Below the pieces are notes generated by a model, which saw nothing but the letters and a program-made list of their open reading frames with translations, did not search any database and was not told the origin of the DNA. Source: Acidobacteria bacterium RIFCSPLOWO2_12_FULL_68_19 (lineage in GTDB: Bacteria > Acidobacteriota > Vicinamibacteria > Vicinamibacterales > UBA2999). From it: 33,593 nt of DNA. Both the position numbers and the translations under genes were made by a program. Below are positions 7,083-19,432 of this stretch, one piece after another (position 1 is the first letter of the stretch; every line of letters begins with the position of its first letter). Where the stretch lies: contig MELF01000025.1 of NCBI GenBank assembly GCA_001767525.1, positions 113,971 through 147,563 on the forward strand. The letters are read 5' to 3'.

Positions 7083-9179
7083 CTATTGGCTGGTGTTCTG
7101 TGGCGCCAGCACGTTGCTCGCCTGCGCCTGCGCGACGAGCCGATCGGCGTCGGCCGGCAGCAGGAAGCCGTCACGCACCGCGCCGGCCGCCGCCACCTTC
7201 ACCGCCTCGACGTAGCCGTCGTGGTTCGTGTACCGCTCCTCGAGCGACGGCCGCGGATCGCCGCTGGCGATCCGCTCCGCTCGCGTCGTCGCGAACGGGA
7301 TCATGCCGGCGGCGTAGTTGCAGATCTTCCCCTGGTGGAACCCGTCGGCCACGATGTTCCAGCCGAGATAGGTCCCGAGTGGCGCGGCGCGCAGCACCAC
7401 CGGCACACCGCCCAGTTCGTTGCCGTCGGCGTCGACGCGCGGCACCTTCATCCTGATGACGTGCCTGATCCCCGGCGGCACCGTCGACGGCACCCCAGAG
7501 GCATCCATCTGGTTGAAGGCCGGTCCCCAGTCATAGTCGAGCATCGGACTGACGATTCCGGTCGGGGCGCCGGCCGGCACGCCGGGAATCGTCGGAAATC
7601 CGGTGGCTTCCTTCGTAGGATCCACGAGGTGGCCGTTCGCCAGGCTCGGATATCGGCTCGCCGGCGGCGCCGCGTCCTTCATCACCCAGTTCCGGAAGTG
7701 GACGCGCAGCGCGTTCGTTGTTTCCGTGTAGGGCATCGGGTTCTCCGCGAACGTTCCTCGCCCGAAGCCCGGACCCGGGCACTGGGGCGGCTTTCCCGCG
7801 ACGACGGTGAACCCGCCGCGCCCGCCGCCGTGGGGAGTGCTGCCGATGTAGTAGCGGCGCACGTTGGCCGGCAGCGGGATATCGCGCTCGGCCGTTGTCC
7901 CGATCCAGCTCGGGCTCATGTAGAGCGCCCAGGCCTCGGTGCCGCCCAGCATTTCGACGATCTTCGGGCACGTCTTCGTCGCATTGCACCGATCGAGGAT
8001 GCTGGCGGCGGGCAGATTGCGCACCGGGTCGGCCCACGGCGTCCACCACGCGGGGCCCTCCATGCCGCCTTCGTACAGCTTCGAGGCGGCGTCGGGCGTG
8101 CCGAAGCGGACGTTCAGCGGCAGCCGGCCCGACGCGATGATCGGCCACATGCCCTCGTACACCTGTCGGCTGCGCTCGTCCTGGTTGAAGCCGAGGTGCA
8201 GCAGCGCCCGGAGGAAGCGGCCCGACTGCGAGCGCCCGCGGCTGATGACCCATGACACCTGCCTGGCCACCGGGTTCGGCGTTCCCGCCTCGTCGCGCTC
8301 GGCGTGCTTGAAGAAGGAGGCGACATCGCGAAAGGCGGCGAACCCGATGCCGAGAACGTAGGGGTCCTGCGACGTGAAGACGACCTGATACAGCAGCTTC
8401 GGATCGAAGCCGCCCTTCACGCAGATCTGCGTGGGATCCGGCGTGCCGGGAAACGGGTTCGACGCGCCGCAGCGCGCCCACGCCCAGTCGCCCGCCGGCA
8501 CCGGGCGCACGCCGCTCACCTTGCCGTCAATGGTCTCGGCGGTATGGGTCTCCAGCCGCGCCTTCGCCGTATCGAGCGTGACCGGCTTGTACGGAACAGG
8601 GTTGGCGTTGACGATCATCGGCCGCGAGTCGGGTCCGCTCGCGTTGACAATCCGCCCGAACACGAGGCCCGTAACGGGCGACCCGTCCGGATGCTTCGCC
8701 ACCGGCACGACGACGTAGTCGTTGGCGTCGCCTGGCGCCGTGTTGCCGGAGTTGTCGCCCTGCCAGCCGCTGCTCAGACCCACGTCGCCCAGCAGCCGCT
8801 CCGACTCGGCGATCGTGATCCGGCCGCCCCGGTTCGGCACGTCGTGCCACATCAGGCGGCTGCTCTTCGACATGTCGATCGGCTTGACGAGATAGAAGGT
8901 CGCCATGTACTCGACCTTCCCGCCAGCATTCCTCGGGGCGAGCAGGATGTCGGTGATGAGGCGGTGGCGCGGATCGTTCGGGTCGAGCTCGCCGAAGGCG
9001 CGTCCCGCCAGCGTCTCGTACTGCCCGGCGCTGCCGAAGGTGCGGCCGTCGAAGGCGGGCGACACCTTCTTGTCGATGACGATGCGCTTGACCTCGGCCT
9101 CGGCCGGCCGCGCCGCCGTCACCAGCGCGACGAGCGCGGCCGCTATCCACGGGAACCGGTGGCGAACGGGCGACGGCAT
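7083..9179 (-). CDS. Exported alpha/beta-hydrolase domain protein (Abhydrolase_10 type)
   Basis: 698 residues from the ATG at 9179, chosen because GAGGAGG precedes it and it opens with a signal peptide (MPSPVRHRFPWIAAALVALVTAARPAEA). The region after it (VKRIVIDKKVSPAFDGRTFG, GQYETLAGRAFGELDP) is typical of a large secreted hydrolase family common in Acidobacteriota and Proteobacteria. The likely nucleophile is in SRGRSQSGRFLR, a GxSxS/G-type elbow, and a later NHDGYVEAV may supply acid/His residues. The family is sparsely characterised; an esterase or lactone-hydrolase activity is probable but the substrate is unknown. It is transcribed alone or with the acetamidase operon, from which a 103-bp spacer containing the tandem repeat separates it. 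Confidence 0.82.
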   Translation of the reverse strand: MPSPVRHRFPWIAAALVALVTAARPAEAEVKRIVIDKKVSPAFDGRTFGSAGQYETLAGRAFGELDPNDPRHRLITDILLAPRNAGGKVEYMATFYLVKPIDMSKSSRLMWHDVPNRGGRITIAESERLLGDVGLSSGWQGDNSGNTAPGDANDYVVVPVAKHPDGSPVTGLVFGRIVNASGPDSRPMIVNANPVPYKPVTLDTAKARLETHTAETIDGKVSGVRPVPAGDWAWARCGASNPFPGTPDPTQICVKGGFDPKLLYQVVFTSQDPYVLGIGFAAFRDVASFFKHAERDEAGTPNPVARQVSWVISRGRSQSGRFLRALLHLGFNQDERSRQVYEGMWPIIASGRLPLNVRFGTPDAASKLYEGGMEGPAWWTPWADPVRNLPAASILDRCNATKTCPKIVEMLGGTEAWALYMSPSWIGTTAERDIPLPANVRRYYIGSTPHGGGRGGFTVVAGKPPQCPGPGFGRGTFAENPMPYTETTNALRVHFRNWVMKDAAPPASRYPSLANGHLVDPTKEATGFPTIPGVPAGAPTGIVSPMLDYDWGPAFNQMDASGVPSTVPPGIRHVIRMKVPRVDADGNELGGVPVVLRAAPLGTYLGWNIVADGFHQGKICNYAAGMIPFATTRAERIASGDPRPSLEERYTNHDGYVEAVKVAAAGAVRDGFLLPADADRLVAQAQASNVLAPQNTSQ

Positions 9180-9200
9180 GCGAAACCTCCTCGGCCGGGG

Positions 9201-9240
9201 TCCCCAACCCGGGGTCCCCATCGCGCCTGCGCGATGGGGT
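9201..9240. repeat. Hairpin repeat element in the esterase 5' region
   Basis: Contains a perfect 10-bp inverted repeat, CCCCATCGCG (9216-9225) and CGCGATGGGG (9230-9239), with a 4-base loop. It is preceded by two direct copies of GGGGTCCCCA-like sequence (TCCCCAACCC, GGGGTCCCCA). It lies 22 to 61 bp upstream of the esterase start codon, so it would form in the mRNA leader or DNA rather than at a gene end. No T-run follows, which argues against an intrinsic terminator. It may be a REP-like dispersed element. Confidence 0.6.
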
Positions 9241-9552
9241 GGGCGTCGCGCGGTTGTTGCGCGTTGGGGCGCCCTCGTGTGGCCCAAATCCTAGCACCAC
9301 CACGCCGACCTTCGACACAGGCAGGACCCGCTCACCGAAGTGCCCCGTTCACACCGGGGGGACCCGTCAAGTCGTTCTGGCGTTGAACCCCTGTCAAGCC
9401 ACAAGTAACGGTTACCGAGCGGAACCTTGACCGATTGCGACCTGGCGAGCAGAATGGCCCCGTTCGACCGGTACACGAAAGATCCGTGGACGTCCCGCGG
9501 GAGCGGTAACCACGTTTGGCGCGATCCACCCATACAACGTTCGGCGGACAAC
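9241..9552. other. Gene-free stretch upstream of vapBC
   Basis: No convincing coding sequence on either strand; the open frames here lack ribosome sites and recognisable protein. Two GGTWACC heptamers occur at 9410-9416 (GGTTACC) and 9505-9511 (GGTAACC), and a third lies just downstream at 9558-9564. The region appears less GC-rich than the flanking genes and probably belongs to the acquired TA segment. Confidence 0.5.
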
Positions 9553-9605: not shown

Positions 9606-9842
9606 ATGAAGAGCGCCCGCGCGAAGCTGTTCCAAAACGGCGGGAGCCAGGCCGTCCGACTTCCCAAGGCGTGCCGGTTCCCTGAGCAGCAGGAAGTCTC
9701 GGTTCGCCGGGAAGGCAATCGAGTCATTCTCGAGGCTCCGGATCAGTGGTCGGACGATTTTCGAGCTTGCCTGGGCGCGTGGCCAGAAGACATCCCTCGG
9801 CCAAAGCAACGCCTGATCCGGGACGTACGGCATCGGCTGTGA
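9606..9842 (+). CDS. vapB: VapB-type antitoxin (SpoVT/AbrB swapped-hairpin family)
   Basis: 78 residues. The N-terminus (AKLFQNGGSQAVRLPKACRF) is the classic VapB AbrB-like DNA-binding motif, and the C-terminus with DQWSDDFRACLG should wrap the toxin. The family neutralises a PIN-domain RNase and represses its own promoter with it. Its TGA overlaps the toxin start (GTGA, 4 bp), so translation is coupled. The promoter lies immediately upstream with almost no leader. Confidence 0.9.
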   Translation: MKSARAKLFQNGGSQAVRLPKACRFPEQQEVSVRREGNRVILEAPDQWSDDFRACLGAWPEDIPRPKQRLIRDVRHRL

Positions 9843-10237
9843 CTCCCGAGTTCATGCTCGACGCCGACACCGTGAGTATGGCCCTGCGCGGCCAGGGAGC
9901 GGTCGGGGCACGCGTGCTGGAACATCGCCCCTCGCAGTTGTGTCTCAGTTCCATCACGTTGGCGGAATTGCGCTTCGGGGCTGACGCGAAGAATTCTCGG
10001 AAGCTTCACACCTTGATCGATACGTTCGTGGCAACCATCGCGGTGTTGCCGTTCGATCAACTGGCCTCCGATCGGTTTGGACGAGTGGCCGTAGCGCTGG
10101 CCAAACGCGGAGAACCGATTGGGACATTTGACACGCTCATCGCCACACACGCGCAGTCACTGGGCCTGACACTCGTCACCAACAATACCCGGCATTTTCG
10201 CCGTGTCGCCGGACTCAAAGTAGCCAACTGGATCTGA
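9839..10237 (+). CDS. vapC: VapC-type PIN-domain ribonuclease toxin
   Basis: 132 residues from a GTG start at 9839 overlapping the vapB stop by 4 bp; longer frames upstream lie inside vapB. PIN acidic residues are visible: Asp8 (FMLDADTVS), Glu43 (LAELRFGA), Asp98 (GTFDTLIATHA) and Asn115/Asn116 in VTNNTRHF. The order and spacing match VapC/FitB-like toxins that cut tRNA or other RNA with Mg2+. The usual MLDTN opening reads MLDAD here, which still keeps the first acidic residue. It appears intact. Confidence 0.9.
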   Translation: MTPEFMLDADTVSMALRGQGAVGARVLEHRPSQLCLSSITLAELRFGADAKNSRKLHTLIDTFVATIAVLPFDQLASDRFGRVAVALAKRGEPIGTFDTLIATHAQSLGLTLVTNNTRHFRRVAGLKVANWI

Positions 10238-10862: not shown

Positions 10863-11246
10863 ATGGCCGGCGTCACCTACGATACCGGAGCGCTGGTCGC
10901 GGCCGAGCGCAACGACCGGCGCATGTGGGCTCTGCACGCGGCGTTCTTCACGGAGGAGGTGGTGCCGGTCGTACCGGCCCCTGTGTTGGCCGAAGCGTGG
11001 CGGGGCGGTTCCCGCCAGGCCAGTCTGTCGCGCCTCCTGGCGATGTGCGATGTAGAGCCGCTGACCGAGACGCAGGCACGAGCTGTAGGCATGCTCGCCG
11101 GGAAAGCGGGGCATGACGATATCGTGGACGTGGCGGTCGTCGAAGGCGCGGCCCGACGCCGGGATGCGATCGTGACGTCCAACGAGCGGCACATCCGCCG
11201 TATTGCCAACGCCGCTGGGGTCCAGGTGCGGATCGAGGGCATCTGA
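10863..11246 (+). CDS. PIN-domain toxin of the second TA pair
   Basis: 127 residues with a PIN-like pattern: Asp7 (VTYDTGALVAAE), Glu44 (APVLAEAWRGG), Asp86 and Asp89 (GHDDIVDVAVVEGA) and a final VTSNERHIRRIA strand-turn where VapC toxins usually have TSD. It is predicted to be a Mg2+-dependent RNase. The start is 6 bp after the antitoxin stop with GAGGG upstream. It is unlike the first VapC in sequence, so the two pairs are not a recent duplication. Confidence 0.82.
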   Translation: MAGVTYDTGALVAAERNDRRMWALHAAFFTEEVVPVVPAPVLAEAWRGGSRQASLSRLLAMCDVEPLTETQARAVGMLAGKAGHDDIVDVAVVEGAARRRDAIVTSNERHIRRIANAAGVQVRIEGI

Positions 11247-13428: not shown

Positions 13429-14247
13429 ATGCCTGCCCCACTCTCTCGGTGGGTCTTCGTCACGGTCGCCACGGCGGCCGCGCTGTGGCTCTCCACCGTG
13501 GGCGCCTCGGGCCAGGCCGCCGCCGTCCGCAGCCCGCGCACCCCCGACGGCAAACCGAATCTGAACGGGATCTGGCAGGCGCTCAACGAGGCGTACTGGG
13601 ACATCGAGCCGCACGCCGCCTCGCCCGGCCCGGTCCCGGTTCTTGGCGCGGCAGGCGCGGTACCGCCGGGGCTCGGCATCATCGAGGGCGGCCGGCTCCC
13701 GTACCAGCCCCCCGCGGCGGAACAGCGGCGCAAGAATCTCGAGAACCGCCTCGCTCTCGACCCCGAAATCAGATGTTACCTCCCGGGCGTGCCGCGCGCG
13801 ATGTACATGCCGTACCCGTTCCAGATCGTCCAGTCGCCGCAGTTCGTCATGATGGTCTTCACCTTCGCGCGGGCGGTGCGAACGCTGTACATGACCGACC
13901 ACACCGAGGCGCCCGCCGACAGCTGGATGGGGTGGTCGAACGGCCGCTGGGACGGCGACACGCTCGTCGTCGATACCACGGGCTTCAACGGCAAGACCTG
14001 GTTCGACCGCTCCGGCAACTTCTCGAGCGACGCGCTCCATGTCGTCGAGCGCTTCACGATGACCGACCCGGATCATCTGCGCTACGAAGCGACCATCGAG
14101 GATCCCAAGGTCTTCACGCGTCCGTGGACGATCGCCATGCCGCTCTACCGGCGGCTCGAGCCGAACGCGCAGTTGCTCGATTTCAGGTGTGTGGAATTCG
14201 CGGAGGACCTGATCTACGGGCACCTCCGCAAGCAGCCGGCCCCGTGA
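13429..14247 (+). CDS. Exported protein of unknown function, 'GRWDGDTLVV' family (short form)
   Basis: 272 residues. A signal peptide (MPAPLSRWVFVTVATAAALWLSTVGASG) is followed by the motif RTPDGKPNLNGIW (near residues 36-48) and, mid-protein, NGRWDGDTLVVDTTGFNGKTWFD. The C-terminal third (VVERFTMTDPDHLRYEATIEDPKVFTRPW) is beta-rich. I know this family as exported proteins of unknown function common in Acidobacteriota; no enzyme activity is established to my knowledge. It shares its motifs with the next gene, showing paralogy, and both precede a DUF6152-type gene. The strongly conserved Asp/Trp motif suggests a binding pocket. Confidence 0.75.
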   Translation: MPAPLSRWVFVTVATAAALWLSTVGASGQAAAVRSPRTPDGKPNLNGIWQALNEAYWDIEPHAASPGPVPVLGAAGAVPPGLGIIEGGRLPYQPPAAEQRRKNLENRLALDPEIRCYLPGVPRAMYMPYPFQIVQSPQFVMMVFTFARAVRTLYMTDHTEAPADSWMGWSNGRWDGDTLVVDTTGFNGKTWFDRSGNFSSDALHVVERFTMTDPDHLRYEATIEDPKVFTRPWTIAMPLYRRLEPNAQLLDFRCVEFAEDLIYGHLRKQPAP

Positions 14248-14249
14248 TT

Positions 14250-14300
14250 GTGGGGCGGGGCCTGTTGCTCATTGTAGGGCGGGTCCTCTTGGACCCGCCG
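14250..14300 (+). repeat. Hairpin repeat between two paralogous exported genes
   Basis: GGCGGGTCC (14278-14286) and GGACCCGCC (14291-14299) form a perfect 9-bp stem with a TCTT loop. Just before it, ATTGTGGGGCGGGGCCT (from about 14247) is a degraded direct copy of ATTGTAGGGCGGGTCCT. I recall TTGTAGGGCGGGTCC...GGACCCGCC as a frequent dispersed element in this bacterial group, which I cannot verify here. It lies in the 76-bp gap between two genes of one operon and may tune their relative expression. Confidence 0.65.
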
Positions 14301-14323
14301 GAGTCGAAACAGAGGGACATCGC

Positions 14324-15343
14324 ATGCGCAATCGACGAGTCGTCGTTGTCATGATCCTCTTCGCCCTCACCGCGTCGATCGCACCCGTTGCCGCCCAGGA
14401 GACCGCGGCCGGAAGAGTCACCGCGGAGGCGGCCGGATACAGGGCGCCCCGCACGCCCGACGGCCAGCCCGACCTTCAGGGCTACTGGACGAACTCGACC
14501 TATACCCCGCTCCAGCGGCCGCCCGACATCACCAGGGAGTTCTTCACCCGCGAGGAAGCGCTCGAGATCATGAAGAAGGCGGCGGCGGCCGAGAGCGAGC
14601 AGACCGTGCCGGGCACGGTCGCCGACGTGCACTACGACTTCACGCAGTTCGGACTCGACCGCAACCAGGGAGGCGTGCCGCTGAATCTCCGCACGTCGCT
14701 CGTCTTCGACCCGCCCGACGGAAGACTGCCGCCGCTCACCGCCGAGGGGAAGCGGCGCGCCGCCGAGCGCGCCGAGACGCGCAGGCGCATGGGCGCCGTG
14801 ACCGACGCGGCGCAGAACCAGTCGCTCAGCGTCCGCTGCATCCTGATGGATCGGGCCGGCCCGCCGATGCTCCCCGGGGCGTACAACAACTACTACCAGA
14901 TCATCCAGACGCAGGGATACGTGATGATCCTCGTCGAGATGATCCACGAGCCGCGGATCATCCCGCTCGACCTCCGGGCGCATCTGCCCGAGCACGTCCG
15001 CCAACTGACCGGCAACTCCATCGGCCGCTGGGACGGCGACACGCTCGTCGTCGAGACGACGAACTTCACCGACAGGACGGCGTTTCAAGGCGCGAGCGAG
15101 CAGATGCGCCTGGTCGAGCGGTTCACCCGCGTGGCCGGCGATCGGATCCTCTATCAGTTCACCATCGACGACCCGACGACGTGGGCGCGGCCGTGGTCGG
15201 GGGAGCTGCCGATGATGAAGACGACCGGGCCGATCTTCGAGCACGCATGCCACGAAGGGAACTACAGCCTCTACAACACGCTCGCCGGCGCGCGGGCGGA
15301 CGAGAAGCGGGCAGCAGAAGCCGTTCGCAAGTCTTCACAGTAG
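14324..15343 (+). CDS. Exported protein of unknown function, 'GRWDGDTLVV' family (long form)
   Basis: 339 residues with a signal peptide (MRNRRVVVVMILFALTASIAPVAAQ) and AGAGGGA upstream of the start. It shares RTPDGQPDLQGYW and GRWDGDTLVVETTNF with the preceding gene, as well as a C-terminal VERFTRVAGDRILYQFTIDDPTTWARPW block, so the two are paralogues fused to different middle regions. The insert (residues about 70-170) is Arg/Glu-rich and contains SLSVRCILMDRAGPP, with a Cys matching the EIRCYLPGVPR Cys of the neighbour. Function unknown. The TAG stop forms part of the next gene's AGGAG, so the genes are translated together. Confidence 0.75.
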   Translation: MRNRRVVVVMILFALTASIAPVAAQETAAGRVTAEAAGYRAPRTPDGQPDLQGYWTNSTYTPLQRPPDITREFFTREEALEIMKKAAAAESEQTVPGTVADVHYDFTQFGLDRNQGGVPLNLRTSLVFDPPDGRLPPLTAEGKRRAAERAETRRRMGAVTDAAQNQSLSVRCILMDRAGPPMLPGAYNNYYQIIQTQGYVMILVEMIHEPRIIPLDLRAHLPEHVRQLTGNSIGRWDGDTLVVETTNFTDRTAFQGASEQMRLVERFTRVAGDRILYQFTIDDPTTWARPWSGELPMMKTTGPIFEHACHEGNYSLYNTLAGARADEKRAAEAVRKSSQ

Positions 15344-15353
15344 GAGTCACGCG

Positions 15354-15779
15354 ATGACCACCAAGCACGGCGCAGTCGTTTGCATCGTTCTGGGCATGCT
15401 GCTGGCGGCGGCACCGCTCGCGGCGCACCACTCCTTCGCAGGGGAGTTCGACGCCACCAAGCCGGTCAAGCTGACGGGCAACCTCGTCAAGTGGGAGATG
15501 ATCAATCCCCACTCGTGGTTCCACATCGACGTGAAGGGGCCTGAAGGCCAGCTGGTGCGCTGGATGATCGAGGGCGGGAGCCCGAACCAGCTCATCCGCC
15601 TGGGCGTGACGAAGAATACGCTGCCGGTTGGCGTGGATCTCGTCATCGAGGGCTATCTGGCGCGCGACGGCAGCAACAAGGCGGTCGGCCGCAATTTCAT
15701 CCTGGCCGACGGCCGGCGCCTCTTCCTCGGCGGCTCCGCTCCCGAGAGCGGGAACGACAGCGGACCGGTCGTCAAGTAG
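15354..15779 (+). CDS. DUF6152-type exported protein
   Basis: 141 residues: a signal peptide (to about residue 24) and then AAHHSFAGEFDATKPVKLTGNL, INPHSWFHIDVKG and GRNFILADGRRLF. The HHSFA start of the mature protein and the INPHSWF motif are the hallmark of the DUF6152 family as I know it, a small OB-like beta-barrel of unknown role. The conserved His residues at the mature N-terminus could bind a metal. AGGAG 8 bases before the ATG overlaps the stop of the upstream gene. Last gene of the three-gene exported operon. Confidence 0.82.
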   Translation: MTTKHGAVVCIVLGMLLAAAPLAAHHSFAGEFDATKPVKLTGNLVKWEMINPHSWFHIDVKGPEGQLVRWMIEGGSPNQLIRLGVTKNTLPVGVDLVIEGYLARDGSNKAVGRNFILADGRRLFLGGSAPESGNDSGPVVK

Positions 15780-15816: not shown

Positions 15817-16581
15817 TCATTCGACGAACGGCTCGATACCCGCCGCCTGGAGGACCGGCGCGGCAGAGGGCGATGTGAGGTAGCGCAGCAGCGCGCGCGA
15901 GGCATCCGGCTCGCGGGCGGCCGTGCCGAGGCCGCCGGCAAAGCCGATCCACGTCTGCAGTTCCTGCGGAATGCGCCCCACCAGCTCGACGCCGGGCACG
16001 CCGAAGATCCGGGACGCGACGACGACCACCAGGTCGACCTCGCCGCGGGCGACGATCTCCACGTTGTATTCGCCGGGCATCGGCCGCAGCCGGGGCTTCA
16101 TCTGCGACGTAATCCCGAGACGGTCGAGGAGGCTGACGAAGTACCGGCCGCTCGCCCCCTCCTCGGGATAGGCGACCGAGCCGGCGTCGAGCAGCGTGCG
16201 CGTGAACGCGGCGACCGTCAAGATGTCGGGCGTCGGTGTGCCGGCGCGAACGCCCACCCCGATCCCCGCGCGTCCGATGACCGCGCGCGTCGCCGCCACG
16301 ACCTTGCCGCGAGCGATCAACGTGTCCAGCACCGGCGGGTTGAGGATGGCGACGTCGAACGCCTCGCCCTCGAGGATCTTCCGCTGCAGCTGCGGGTTGA
16401 CCTCGAAGCGGATGTTGACGCGGTGGCCGGTGGCGCGCTCGAACTGCGTGCAGAGCTCGGCGATGGCGTTGCGCGCACCGTTGCCGCTGAGGACCTTGAT
16501 TTCGGCCGCTCGCGCCGGGGCCGCCGCGAGCAGTAGACACGCGTACGCAATCGCCGCCGACGCGGCCGTCCTCGCCCTCAT
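15817..16581 (-). CDS. Periplasmic solute-binding protein, ModA/PBP2-like
   Basis: 254 residues with a signal peptide (MRARTAASAAIAYACLLLAAAPARA). The mature start EIKVLSGNGARNAIAELCTQFERATGHRV and the later FDVAILNPPVLDTLIARGKVV fit the type 2 periplasmic-binding fold of the ModA/extracellular substrate-binding class. Molybdate is not certain, because the ModA ligand residues cannot be assigned by eye. No ABC ATPase or permease is next to it. ATGA overlap with the upstream amidase implies co-translation, so it may capture or sense a compound related to the amidase substrate. Confidence 0.78.
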   Translation of the reverse strand: MRARTAASAAIAYACLLLAAAPARAAEIKVLSGNGARNAIAELCTQFERATGHRVNIRFEVNPQLQRKILEGEAFDVAILNPPVLDTLIARGKVVAATRAVIGRAGIGVGVRAGTPTPDILTVAAFTRTLLDAGSVAYPEEGASGRYFVSLLDRLGITSQMKPRLRPMPGEYNVEIVARGEVDLVVVVASRIFGVPGVELVGRIPQELQTWIGFAGGLGTAAREPDASRALLRYLTSPSAAPVLQAAGIEPFVE

Positions 16582-18176
16582 GGCTCACCCGGGAGCGCCG
16601 GCGTCAGGGCCGGCGGCCTGCGATGCCGGGTTCCCTGCTCGTAGGCGTAGCCCAACCTGAAGAGCGTCGGCTCGGCGTACGGCCGCGCCAGGAACTCGAG
16701 CCCCACCGGCAGCCCGTCGGTCGTGAAGCCCGCCGGCACCGTCAGCGCCGGGAATCCAAGCGTGGAACTGAGCCGCCGGTTGCTGCCCTGTCCGGTCGTG
16801 TCGAGCTGCGGATCGGTCATGTCGCGGGCGCCAAGCTTCGCCGGCTGGTGGTCGTAGGTCGCATGCACGAGCGCGTCGAGCCGATGATCGGCCATGGCGC
16901 TGAACACCTGCTGCCGGATCCCGTCGTTGATGCGCAGCGCCTGGAGGTACCCGGCTTCCTCCGGCGAGCGCCCGATGTTGCTCATCAGCACGCGGACCCT
17001 GGACGGCACCACTTTGCCCGAGAGCAGGATGTCGCGGAGCGTCTTCACCGGAGCGTTCGGGTGCTCGGCGAGGTACCCGTTCACCGCCGGCTCCGTTTCG
17101 AACACGTTCACATCCCAGGCCCGGGCCACCCGTTGGGCGAGTTCGGGAATCGCGACAGGATCGACGACTTCAGCCCCGAGTCTCCTCAGGTCGGCGACGG
17201 CCCGATCGACGACCGCCTTCACCTTGCGATAGTCCGGAGACGAGGGGTCGGCCTTCGGATCGATCGGCTGACGGATGACGCCGACGCGCGCACCCTTCAG
17301 GCCGTCCTGCGCCAGGAACGCCGTGTAGGTCGCCGGAATCTGTCCGACCGCCTGTGCCGTGATCGGATCCTTCGGGTCGTAGCCGGCGATCGCGTCGAGA
17401 AGCCGCGCGGCGTCTCCGACCGTGCGCGCAATCGGTCCGAGCGTGTCGGTGCTCGGTTTGGCGGGCATCATGCCGTGCCGGCTGACGAGCGGCACCGTCG
17501 GCCGCAGCCCCACCAGGCCGTGCACCGCCGCCGGGCCGCGTATCGAACCGCCCGTGTCCTCCCCAATCGCCGCGGCGGCGAAGTTGGCCGCCACTCCCGA
17601 GCCGCTGCCGCTCGAGGAGCCGCTCGCGTTGCGCGTCGGATCGTAGGCGTTGCGGATGGGACCGCCGGCCGACGCCGTGCTCAGGTAGCCGGCGGCATAT
17701 TCCCCCATCGTCGCTTTCCCGACGATCACCGCGCCTGCGCGCCGCAGCTTCGCCACGACGGTCGCGTCGCGCTGCGGCACGAAGTCCTTGAACAGGATCG
17801 ACCCGTACGTCGTCGGCATGTCGCTCGTCTCCACTTGATCCTTGACGAGCACCGGGACGCAGTGGAGCGGCCCGGCCGGGCCCGAGGCGCGGAACGCGGC
17901 GTCGAGCCGGTCGGCTTCCTGCCGCGCCCGTGGGTTGACCGTCTGCACGGCGTTCAGCCGCGGGCCGCTCTGGTCGTACGCCTCGATGCGGCGCAGATAG
18001 GCGTCCACGAGCGCGCGGCACGTCAGCCTGTTGGCCCGGAACGACGAGTGAATATCGTCGATAGTGGCCTCCAGCAGGTGGAAGGGGGCGGGCGGCCCCT
18101 GGGTTCGGACGGTCGAACCGGAAACCAGCAGGAGGAGCGCGAGACCGAACGTCAGCGTCTTCAATGGCGACCTCAC
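16578..18176 (-). CDS. Exported amidase-signature family hydrolase
   Basis: 532 residues from a GTG start at 18176; the N-terminus (MRSPLKTLTFGLALLLLVSG) is a signal peptide, unlike the cytoplasmic amidase at 3636. The triad residues are Lys112 (VLVKDQV), Ser187 in ASGSSSGSGSG and Ser211 in GEDTGGSIRGPAAVHG, all intact. The length is normal for AS enzymes. The ribosome site before the GTG is weak, so the start is less certain. It sits between a gluconolactonase stump upstream and a solute-binding protein gene that overlaps its stop by 4 bp. It likely cleaves an amide in the envelope; substrate unknown. Confidence 0.87.
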   Translation of the reverse strand: MRSPLKTLTFGLALLLLVSGSTVRTQGPPAPFHLLEATIDDIHSSFRANRLTCRALVDAYLRRIEAYDQSGPRLNAVQTVNPRARQEADRLDAAFRASGPAGPLHCVPVLVKDQVETSDMPTTYGSILFKDFVPQRDATVVAKLRRAGAVIVGKATMGEYAAGYLSTASAGGPIRNAYDPTRNASGSSSGSGSGVAANFAAAAIGEDTGGSIRGPAAVHGLVGLRPTVPLVSRHGMMPAKPSTDTLGPIARTVGDAARLLDAIAGYDPKDPITAQAVGQIPATYTAFLAQDGLKGARVGVIRQPIDPKADPSSPDYRKVKAVVDRAVADLRRLGAEVVDPVAIPELAQRVARAWDVNVFETEPAVNGYLAEHPNAPVKTLRDILLSGKVVPSRVRVLMSNIGRSPEEAGYLQALRINDGIRQQVFSAMADHRLDALVHATYDHQPAKLGARDMTDPQLDTTGQGSNRRLSSTLGFPALTVPAGFTTDGLPVGLEFLARPYAEPTLFRLGYAYEQGTRHRRPPALTPALPGEP

Positions 18177-18420: not shown

Positions 18421-19389
18421 TTACGCGCCGGCGAAATCGTACAGCGTCCGTGGGTTCTCGACGAGAATCCGGCGCCGCGTCCCCTCCTCCGGCGCCCAGC
18501 GCGCCATCAAGTCGAACAGCCGCGCGTCGTCGGGTTTCCGGGTTTCGTTTGGATGCGGCCAATTGCTCCCCCAGACCAGCCGTTCCGGCGCCGCCGTGAC
18601 GAGCGCCTGCCCCACGCTGACCGCGTCGGCGTACGCCGGCGGACCGTCTTTCGTGTTGTCGTAGGTGACCGACAGCTTCACCCAGGTGCGGCCGCGGTCG
18701 ATGAGGCGGCGGACAACCTTGTAGGCGGGATGCGCCACGCCCCCAGCCCCCGACATGTGTGCGATGTGATCGAACACGATGGCCGACGGCAGGCGGTTCC
18801 ACAGCGCCTCGGCCGCGGCGATCTGATCGGCGGTCATGTTGATCTGGACGTGCCAGCCGAGCCTGGCGATGCGCCTGGCGAGCGGCTCGATCATCTCCTC
18901 TGTGACGACGGCCGTCTTCGGGTCGGTGAGGCTGAACCGGATGCCGCGAATGCCGGCGCCGTGGAGCTCGTCCAGCTCGGCGTCGGTCGCCGCCGGATGG
19001 AGGACGGCGACGCCTCGCGCGTTGGGCGCCATCTGCGCAACGGCGTCGACGGTGACCCGGTTGTCGGTGGCGTAGTTCCGGGGTGTAACGACGATCACGC
19101 GGGTCGTCCCGATTCGCTTCTGCAGGAGCCGGTACTGCGGCACCGCGGCGCTCCCCGGCGCCGCACGCTCGCTCGGCGGCATCGGAAAGCGCGCCGTGTC
19201 GTAGATGTGCATGTGGCAGTCGCACGCCCGGGCGGGCGCCGCGAGCGCGGGCGGGGCCGTGCCAGAGGAATTCGGCACCGCGATCTGCGCCTGGCTCTCG
19301 CGCGGCCTCGCCGCAAGTCCCGCGCTGAGCGCGGCGATCCCCGCCCGTTCGAGAAAGGTCCGTCGCGTCAGTCCGTCGTCGCCGGCCAT
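18421..19389 (-). CDS. Tat-exported amidohydrolase, PDC-hydrolase (LigI)-like TIM barrel
   Basis: 322 residues from the ATG at 19389; a GTG four codons upstream (19401) is the alternative, and neither has a clear ribosome site. A Tat signal (LTRRTFLERAGIAALSAG, residues 7-24) precedes the amidohydrolase metal motif DCHMHIYD (His59, His61). Later metal/barrel elements are VFDHIAHMSG, the VKLSVTYDN stretch, and WGSNWPHPNE near the C-terminus, where Asp/Asn-Trp-Pro-His is typical of amidohydrolase_2 enzymes such as 2-pyrone-4,6-dicarboxylate lactonase. It would hydrolyse a lactone or decarboxylate an aromatic acid derivative. Export is unusual for LigI itself. It precedes the gluconolactonase stump and amidase on the same strand. 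Confidence 0.83.
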   Translation of the reverse strand: MAGDDGLTRRTFLERAGIAALSAGLAARPRESQAQIAVPNSSGTAPPALAAPARACDCHMHIYDTARFPMPPSERAAPGSAAVPQYRLLQKRIGTTRVIVVTPRNYATDNRVTVDAVAQMAPNARGVAVLHPAATDAELDELHGAGIRGIRFSLTDPKTAVVTEEMIEPLARRIARLGWHVQINMTADQIAAAEALWNRLPSAIVFDHIAHMSGAGGVAHPAYKVVRRLIDRGRTWVKLSVTYDNTKDGPPAYADAVSVGQALVTAAPERLVWGSNWPHPNETRKPDDARLFDLMARWAPEEGTRRRILVENPRTLYDFAGA

Positions 19390-19432
19390 CGTGGCGGCCA
19401 CATGCTAGCACGCGGCCGGCTGGTCCAGCGGT

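Follow-up and report, generated by a model that had tools for sequence, protein, structure and literature searches.

The gene set considered here is represented by an operon of three genes for exported proteins, on the + strand at positions 13429-15779 of a 33,593-nucleotide stretch (hereafter the window) from Acidobacteria bacterium RIFCSPLOWO2_12_FULL_68_19, and the described systems closest to it are the calycins, secreted metal proteins with an N-terminal histidine, CopC/CopD with YcnI/YcnJ, and SusC/SusD. The operon encodes two related members of a secreted barrel family, P1 and P2, and a small protein of family DUF6152 (PF19649) with a His-His pair; in fuller copies found elsewhere it is accompanied by the predicted membrane protein DUF6644 and often by a c'-type cytochrome. 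Calycins include the fatty-acid-binding proteins (FABP), the retinol-binding proteins and the lipocalins, and their signature is a G-x-W on the first strand. The barrel family resembled them in the up-and-down barrel predicted for P2, whose top matches in the Protein Data Bank (PDB) had Z 9.5, and in a nearly invariant G-x-W on the first strand (G 0.96, W 0.91, n = 91), whereas it differed in having no sequence match to the lipocalin or FABP models of Pfam and NCBIfam, in a conserved cysteine pair, in the large helical insertion of P2, and in that alpha-type barrels were always encoded as two side-by-side paralogues. The family is thus calycin-like by fold alone, as far as the model of P2 indicates.

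The second group, retrieved by signal-strapping, comprises DUF4198, DUF6702 and the anglerases, in which the N-terminal histidine left after cleavage binds metals, according to the main text of PMC12537917. DUF6152 is likewise secreted with a histidine at its likely mature N-terminus, has TonB receptors among its gene neighbours and, near one copy, a HupE_UreJ_2 gene, but its predicted fold is an oligonucleotide/oligosaccharide-binding (OB) fold instead of the beta-sandwich described there; DUF6152 itself is absent from the main text of that paper. CopC/CopD and YcnI/YcnJ share with our system a secreted protein with an N-terminal His, a likely one in DUF6152, encoded beside a membrane protein with an invariant histidine. 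The differences are the OB fold of DUF6152, the lack of profile support for a relation between DUF6644 and CopD, and the absence from those systems of any counterpart of the barrel pair and the cytochrome. Finally, SusC/SusD is comparable in the expansion of paralogous barrels beside TonB-dependent receptors of the CarboxypepD_reg/OMP_b-brl_4 type; the SusD fold, however, is helical, whereas the proteins described here are predicted barrels, and the receptors lay mostly outside the operon, with none beside that of the window. Full-text searches of the literature library used retrieved no paper mentioning DUF6152 (PF19649), DUF6644, PF20349 or GDTLVV, and the gene set, two related secreted barrels plus a small His-His protein, is undescribed in bacteria. 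We propose, with a probability of roughly 40%, that it is a metal/redox module of the periplasm whose ligand specificity is determined by pairs of barrels; the window operon is one copy of this gene set. The existence of the module and the folds of its proteins are well supported, and its metal, ligand and chemistry are inferred.

Linkage of the barrel and DUF6152 families

The window lies at the end of a contig (C25, MELF01000025.1) in a genome of 4.21 Mb and 52 contigs. The three open reading frames (ORFs) of the operon encode P1, an alpha-type barrel-family protein of 272 aa (13429..14247, + strand), P2, a beta-type one of 339 aa (14324..15343, + strand), and the DUF6152 protein of 141 aa (15354..15779, + strand), with intergenic gaps of 76 and 10 bp. 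The first-pass annotation of the window had read them as two paralogues and a DUF6152-type protein, all exported, which was borne out by the ORFs, the alignment of P1 with P2, the score of the third protein against the Pfam model (98.8 bits for a cut-off of 27) and the hydrophobic leaders read directly from all three sequences.

Searches of the own genome with P2 and P1 returned 102 and 94 rows, respectively, and iterated profiles started from either protein converged on the same 91 barrel ORFs. This number is a lower bound, covering 40 stretches plus the window, with one weak match on contig C10 left out. Barrels thus made up about 2.5% of the genes, roughly 1 in 40 (91 of an estimated 3,660, a total scaled up from the 589 genes that were predicted in 677,056 bases). 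A FastTree phylogeny separated them into clades: alpha has 21 members and includes P1, beta has 12 and includes P2, gamma and delta have 21 and 25, and epsilon has 11. A single outlier, from contig C35, stood on a long branch. Gamma and delta are working labels, each pooling several neighbouring branches. Every one of the 21 alpha genes had a partner in its cluster, a beta in nine cases and a gamma in 12, one gamma gene being the partner of two alphas. The partners were at most 280 bp apart in 20 of the 21 cases, and in the remaining one they were separated by 637 bp with a DUF6152 gene between them. Distances among alpha proteins correlated with those among their beta partners (Mantel r = 0.69, p = 2.5e-4; nine pairs) and weakly with those among the gamma partners (r = 0.22, p = 0.018; 12 pairs). 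Gene order within the pairs was variable (alpha-beta, beta-alpha or divergent), so the pairing survives rearrangement, and alpha and its partner would form a physical or functional couple. A beta-alpha pair was also seen in a metagenome-assembled genome titled Klebsiella pneumoniae (L171), a title that is probably a mislabel.

The own genome contained 34 DUF6152 ORFs by iterated profile, the same count as given by the Pfam model. Of these, 24 lay within 1.5 kb of a barrel gene, and 23 of the 24 shared its strand; the fraction of the genome within this reach was 5.8%. DUF6152 was present in the cluster of seven of the nine alpha-beta pairs. In other genomes, consecutive alpha, beta and DUF6152 genes were observed 16 times in 15 of the best 80 loci, which were chosen by similarity to beta and are not an unbiased sample of gene order; both gaps were shorter than 200 bp in 13 of the 15. 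Besides Acidobacteria, these loci came from records titled Gammaproteobacteria (L113, L123 and L176) and Gemmatimonadetes (L168).

Among 119 genomes of the phylum, DUF6152 was detected in nine and barrels in the same nine and no others, so that neither family occurred alone. DUF6644 exceeded its cut-off in these nine genomes as well, and was present below the cut-off in one more. The nine belong to five family codes (f1, f5, f6, f30 and f46) and are not independent, and the barrel search scored at most about 19 candidates per genome. Families f2, f3, f4 and f7, of the same order as the window, had neither barrels nor DUF6152. In a 2.5-Mb genome (G030), the search thresholds recovered only one gene each of DUF6152, alpha and beta, along with two of DUF6644, and all of these were located in C38:20175-23509. 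Binomial and Fisher values computed here presuppose independent genes and genomes, although neither are independent. Since the families recur together within the own genome, in further genomes of the phylum and outside it, their linkage exceeds chance, and the common periplasmic role suggested by the first-pass annotation is supported in the form of a shared extracytoplasmic one.

The wider module

The three genes described in that annotation are a part of the system, which proved wider, extending to DUF6644, to a c'-type cytochrome in several relatives, and to the at least 91 barrel genes of the genome. Six loci (L118, L126, L164, L168, L215 from G030, and L216 from G092), spanning Acidobacteriota and Gemmatimonadota, presented the genes in the order alpha, beta, DUF6152 facing two DUF6644 genes on the opposite strand. 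A cytochrome-c'-like gene was found in all six; in L168, L215 and L216 it is the neighbour of DUF6644 and shares its strand, whereas its placement is different in the others. CxxCH occurred in 20 of 20 cytochrome-c'-like matches, and only two of eight such proteins tested against PF01322 scored above the Pfam cut-off. PepSY_TM genes were located nearby in L217 and L219 (at the cut-off) and in L227 (below it).

In the own genome there were 13 DUF6644-like ORFs, nine of them within 1 kb of a DUF6152 gene. Hydropathy counts most often gave three to five membrane spans for DUF6644, and its invariant residues were a His (60 of 62 sequences, the other two being gapped), a Lys, a Trp and a GR. Comparison of six DUF6644 with five CopD sequences by hhalign, both profiles being thin, yielded a probability of 1.2% (E 0.042), as against 0.1% (E 0.64) for the DoxX control. 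DUF2214 matched one of five DUF6644 proteins (E = 0.0015), and none of 60 genomes had DUF2214 at E <= 1e-8.

Plasmid records with a P2-like match numbered seven, as did those with DUF6152. Alphaproteobacterial plasmids carried a reduced module, in which a delta-type barrel stood beside DUF6152 in all seven stretches opened, with DUF6644 in six; the hosts were Sphingobium, Novosphingobium, Croceibacterium and Sinorhizobium. Some matches share one record, and the two small plasmids of N. humi are near-copies. A single block of the Sphingobium sp. TomTYG65 plasmid (L193) contained a barrel gene followed by a DUF6152 gene, twice in succession, together with two DUF6644 genes and a TonB receptor gene, and adjoined monooxygenase and sulfonate-use genes. 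In the phage collection searched for DUF6152 none was found.

Sequence features and predicted folds

P1 and P2 were 29% identical (E = 5e-25). They had PRTPDG-P-L-G-W and GRWDGDTLVV-TT-F in common and were unlike in their middle sections, as first described. The absolute conservation then attributed to Trp-Asp-Gly-Asp did not hold: exact WDGD was present in 18 of the 91 own-genome members and in 19 of 166 others, WEGD and WEGN being common. The GRWDGDTLVV segment comprises residues 172-181 of P1 (13942..13971, + strand; alignment A2) and residues 234-243 of P2 (15023..15052, + strand); in the P2 model, strands are predicted at 231-237 and 240-246, with WDGD as the turn that joins them, and the corresponding segment of P1 is presumably a beta-hairpin as well. 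Because the motif varies freely and sits at a hairpin turn, WDGD as an absolutely conserved and therefore functional motif is not supported, and GRWDGDTLVV as an active-site motif was rejected.

Other positions were much more constant. The G-x-W corresponds to G47-I-W49 of P1 (13567..13575, + strand), where both residues were conserved in at least 90% of a 55-sequence alignment and the presumed first strand is homologous to region 42-56 of the P2 model, and to G53-Y-W55 of P2 (14480..14488, + strand), whose glycine was invariant in 96 sequences. Both members of the cysteine pair were retained in 85 of the 91 own-genome barrels. In P1 these are Cys116 (13774..13776, + strand), invariant in 55 sequences, and Cys254 (14188..14190, + strand), assigned from the alignment; in P2 they are Cys172 (14837..14839, + strand), invariant in the alignments, and Cys309 (15248..15250, + strand), invariant in the 12 beta members and conserved in at least 90% of the 96. 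To judge from the sequences, the pair would form a disulphide. One Arg, one Glu and one Asp were likewise nearly invariant among the 91, at 0.95, 0.93 and 0.98, respectively, and E265 and D283 were invariant in 96 aligned P2 relatives.

Neither P1 nor P2 matched any Pfam family at E <= 1 or any NCBIfam model, and the 96 barrel relatives gave two unrelated single Pfam matches and zero NCBIfam matches at E <= 0.01. One of the 96 (alignment A5) matched Oxidored_molyb with E = 2.2e-4. PDB sequence searches with P2 and DUF6152 returned nothing meaningful (best E 0.24, 0.17 and 0.29). By sequence, neither a solved relative was found nor a characterised enzyme with the same motif, which the first-pass annotation had named as evidence that would speak against it.

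The P2 model, built from a 96-row alignment, had a predicted local distance difference test score (pLDDT) of 85.0 and a predicted template modelling score (pTM) of 0.82, and consisted of a strand meander with a helical insertion between strands 1 and 2. Its best PDB fold matches were the retinol- and fatty-acid-binding proteins already mentioned (root-mean-square deviation 3.4-3.9 over 113-114 residues), the luciferase NanoLuc was also among the matches, and Foldseek gave a single match below 1e-3 (E 9.7e-4). An up-and-down barrel like that of lipocalins and FABPs is thus well supported for P2 by the model, with modest scores. The DUF6152 protein is composed of a leader and a single domain; modelled from His25 on (37-row alignment), the latter reached a pLDDT of 82.8 and a five-stranded OB-like order, with PriB and SSB as fold matches (Z 9.5 and below) and none of 942 Foldseek matches at E <= 0.001. 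On this prediction, assignment to the OB fold is well supported.

His-His occurred near the likely mature N-terminus in all 71 DUF6152 proteins, of which 34 are from the own genome and 37 from elsewhere. The residue before it was Ala in 66, Gly in four and Val in one, and the (-3,-1) cleavage rule held before the pair in 67. In the window protein these residues are His25-His26 (15426..15431, + strand), invariant in the 37 aligned sequences and likely mature residues 1-2, as the putative cleavage site places them. An N-terminal His is reported for 79% of DUF4198 and 65% of DUF6702 proteins and as the first residue after cleavage in 2.6% of a signal-peptide set and, by the published criterion, it can chelate metal on its own (main text of PMC12537917). 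A further conserved motif, NPH, was present in 66 of the 71 and invariant in the 37 (Asn51-Pro52-His53; 15504..15512, + strand); a copper histidine brace, as in lytic polysaccharide monooxygenases (LPMO) or CopC, needs a second His side chain beside the N-terminal His, and His53 is conserved. The earlier idea that the HHS start could bind metal is strengthened by the presence of the pair in all 71 DUF6152 proteins examined.

Around the operon, exported-looking hydrolase-type genes were read by eye at 7083-9287, 16578-18176 and 18421-19401, with products resembling alpha/beta-hydrolases, amidases and amidohydrolases. A short PIN-domain-toxin-like protein, with a small ORF upstream, was read in the same way at 10863-11246, and a second such reading was made at 9746-10237. 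In the own genome at large, CarboxypepD_reg was present in 15 and OMP_b-brl_4 in 10 of 120 proteins encoded near alpha, beta and gamma genes.

Proposed role and alternatives

In the module proposed here, alpha and beta would jointly bind one small, probably hydrophobic, ligand, and DUF6152 would hold a transition metal, copper in the first place, by the histidines at its mature N-terminus. Electrons would pass between the membrane and the periplasm through DUF6644 and the cytochrome, to or from this metal site, and the bound ligand would thereby undergo oxidation or reduction or be set free for uptake. In this way many interchangeable ligand-binding pairs would share one metal/redox core; such a core is suggested by the proportions of barrels (at least 91), DUF6152 (34) and DUF6644 (13), although 91 : 34 : 13 is not proof. 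Besides the folds, the pairing of alpha genes, the linkage, co-occurrence and order of the genes, the fuller module with its cytochromes and the His-His pair, the HupE_UreJ_2 gene of the L176 operon, described below, speaks for this proposal. Several observations weigh against it. In the own genome, 10 of the 34 DUF6152 genes had no barrel gene within 1.5 kb, the strict order alpha, beta, DUF6152 was found at only three of the nine alpha-beta pairs, window included, and four of the 13 DUF6644 genes lay 3.7-5.9 kb from any DUF6152. The window operon itself has no DUF6644 beside it, and no cytochrome-c'-like match was obtained in the 41 own-genome stretches. The substitution of HupE_UreJ_2 for DUF6644 was seen once. 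A second site within four residues of the His-His pair also fits the cleavage rule in 47 of the 71 DUF6152 proteins. Lastly, the fold matches of both models are modest and do not indicate a function.

A somewhat unlikely alternative is metal acquisition or trafficking, in which DUF6152 would capture a periplasmic metal, TonB-dependent receptors would import chelates bound by the barrels, DUF6644 or HupE_UreJ_2 would hand the metal on, and no organic substrate would be transformed. The invariant His-His pair and the chelating capacity ascribed to an N-terminal His are consistent with it, and so is the L176 operon, in which the position that DUF6644 has elsewhere is taken by a HupE_UreJ_2 gene (E = 4e-53), the sole case in the sequences examined; this permease family carries N-terminal-His metal-binding domains according to the main text of PMC12537917. 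Receptors point in the same direction. Oar-like TonB-dependent receptors (PF25183) are encoded by about 37 genes of the own genome (69 match rows merged by hand), 17 of which were within 4 kb of a barrel gene as against 11.6% expected, a background rate computed for receptors alone among the neighbour families, and TonB receptors also occurred near the alphaproteobacterial copies. Conversely, 91 or more barrels are a great number for a handful of metals, some copies have catabolic genes in their vicinity, and the profile comparison above did not support a relation of DUF6644 to CopD.

The proximity of receptors would also serve an account restricted to uptake, where alpha/beta pairs are secreted, bind hydrophobic nutrients and deliver them to TonB-dependent receptors, much as in SusC/SusD, and DUF6152 is a structural adaptor. 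The likeness of the barrel to lipid- and retinoid-binding proteins, the large paralogous expansion and lipobox-like leaders in eight of the 91 barrels argue for this account, which we nevertheless regard as unlikely: consecutive runs of alpha, beta and DUF6152 were usually without a receptor, and it leaves unexplained DUF6644, the cytochrome, and the invariant HH and NPH of DUF6152. More doubtful still is a reading in which the module is a periplasmic oxidoreductase of a new class and DUF6152 its redox subunit, holding the metal as N-terminal His-His copper on an OB fold, with DUF6644 pairs and the c'-type cytochrome to supply or accept electrons and interchangeable alpha/beta pairs presenting different hydrophobic substrates; it would explain why one genome has 91 or more barrel genes for a redox core that is smaller. 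It is very improbable that the barrels are themselves enzymes, with conserved Arg, Glu, Tyr and Asp lining the barrel and catalysing isomerisation, cyclisation or decarboxylation: enzymes with lipocalin-like folds exist and the conservation of R, E and D exceeds 90%, but the fold matches are mostly binding proteins, with the luciferase NanoLuc also in the list, the conserved residues may have a structural role and no active-site match was found.

A family accounting for about 2.5% of one genome's genes has no convincing Pfam-A or NCBIfam match. Its exact co-occurrence with DUF6152 and DUF6644 in 119 genomes, and the conservation of the module in several phyla, allow three unassigned families to be treated as a single system that can be tested. 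If it is true, as the preferred metal/redox reading supposes, that DUF6152 holds copper or another metal N-terminally, an OB-fold scaffold would join the N-terminal-histidine metal proteins, and this would provide a route to the purpose of many secreted barrels in soil and water bacteria.

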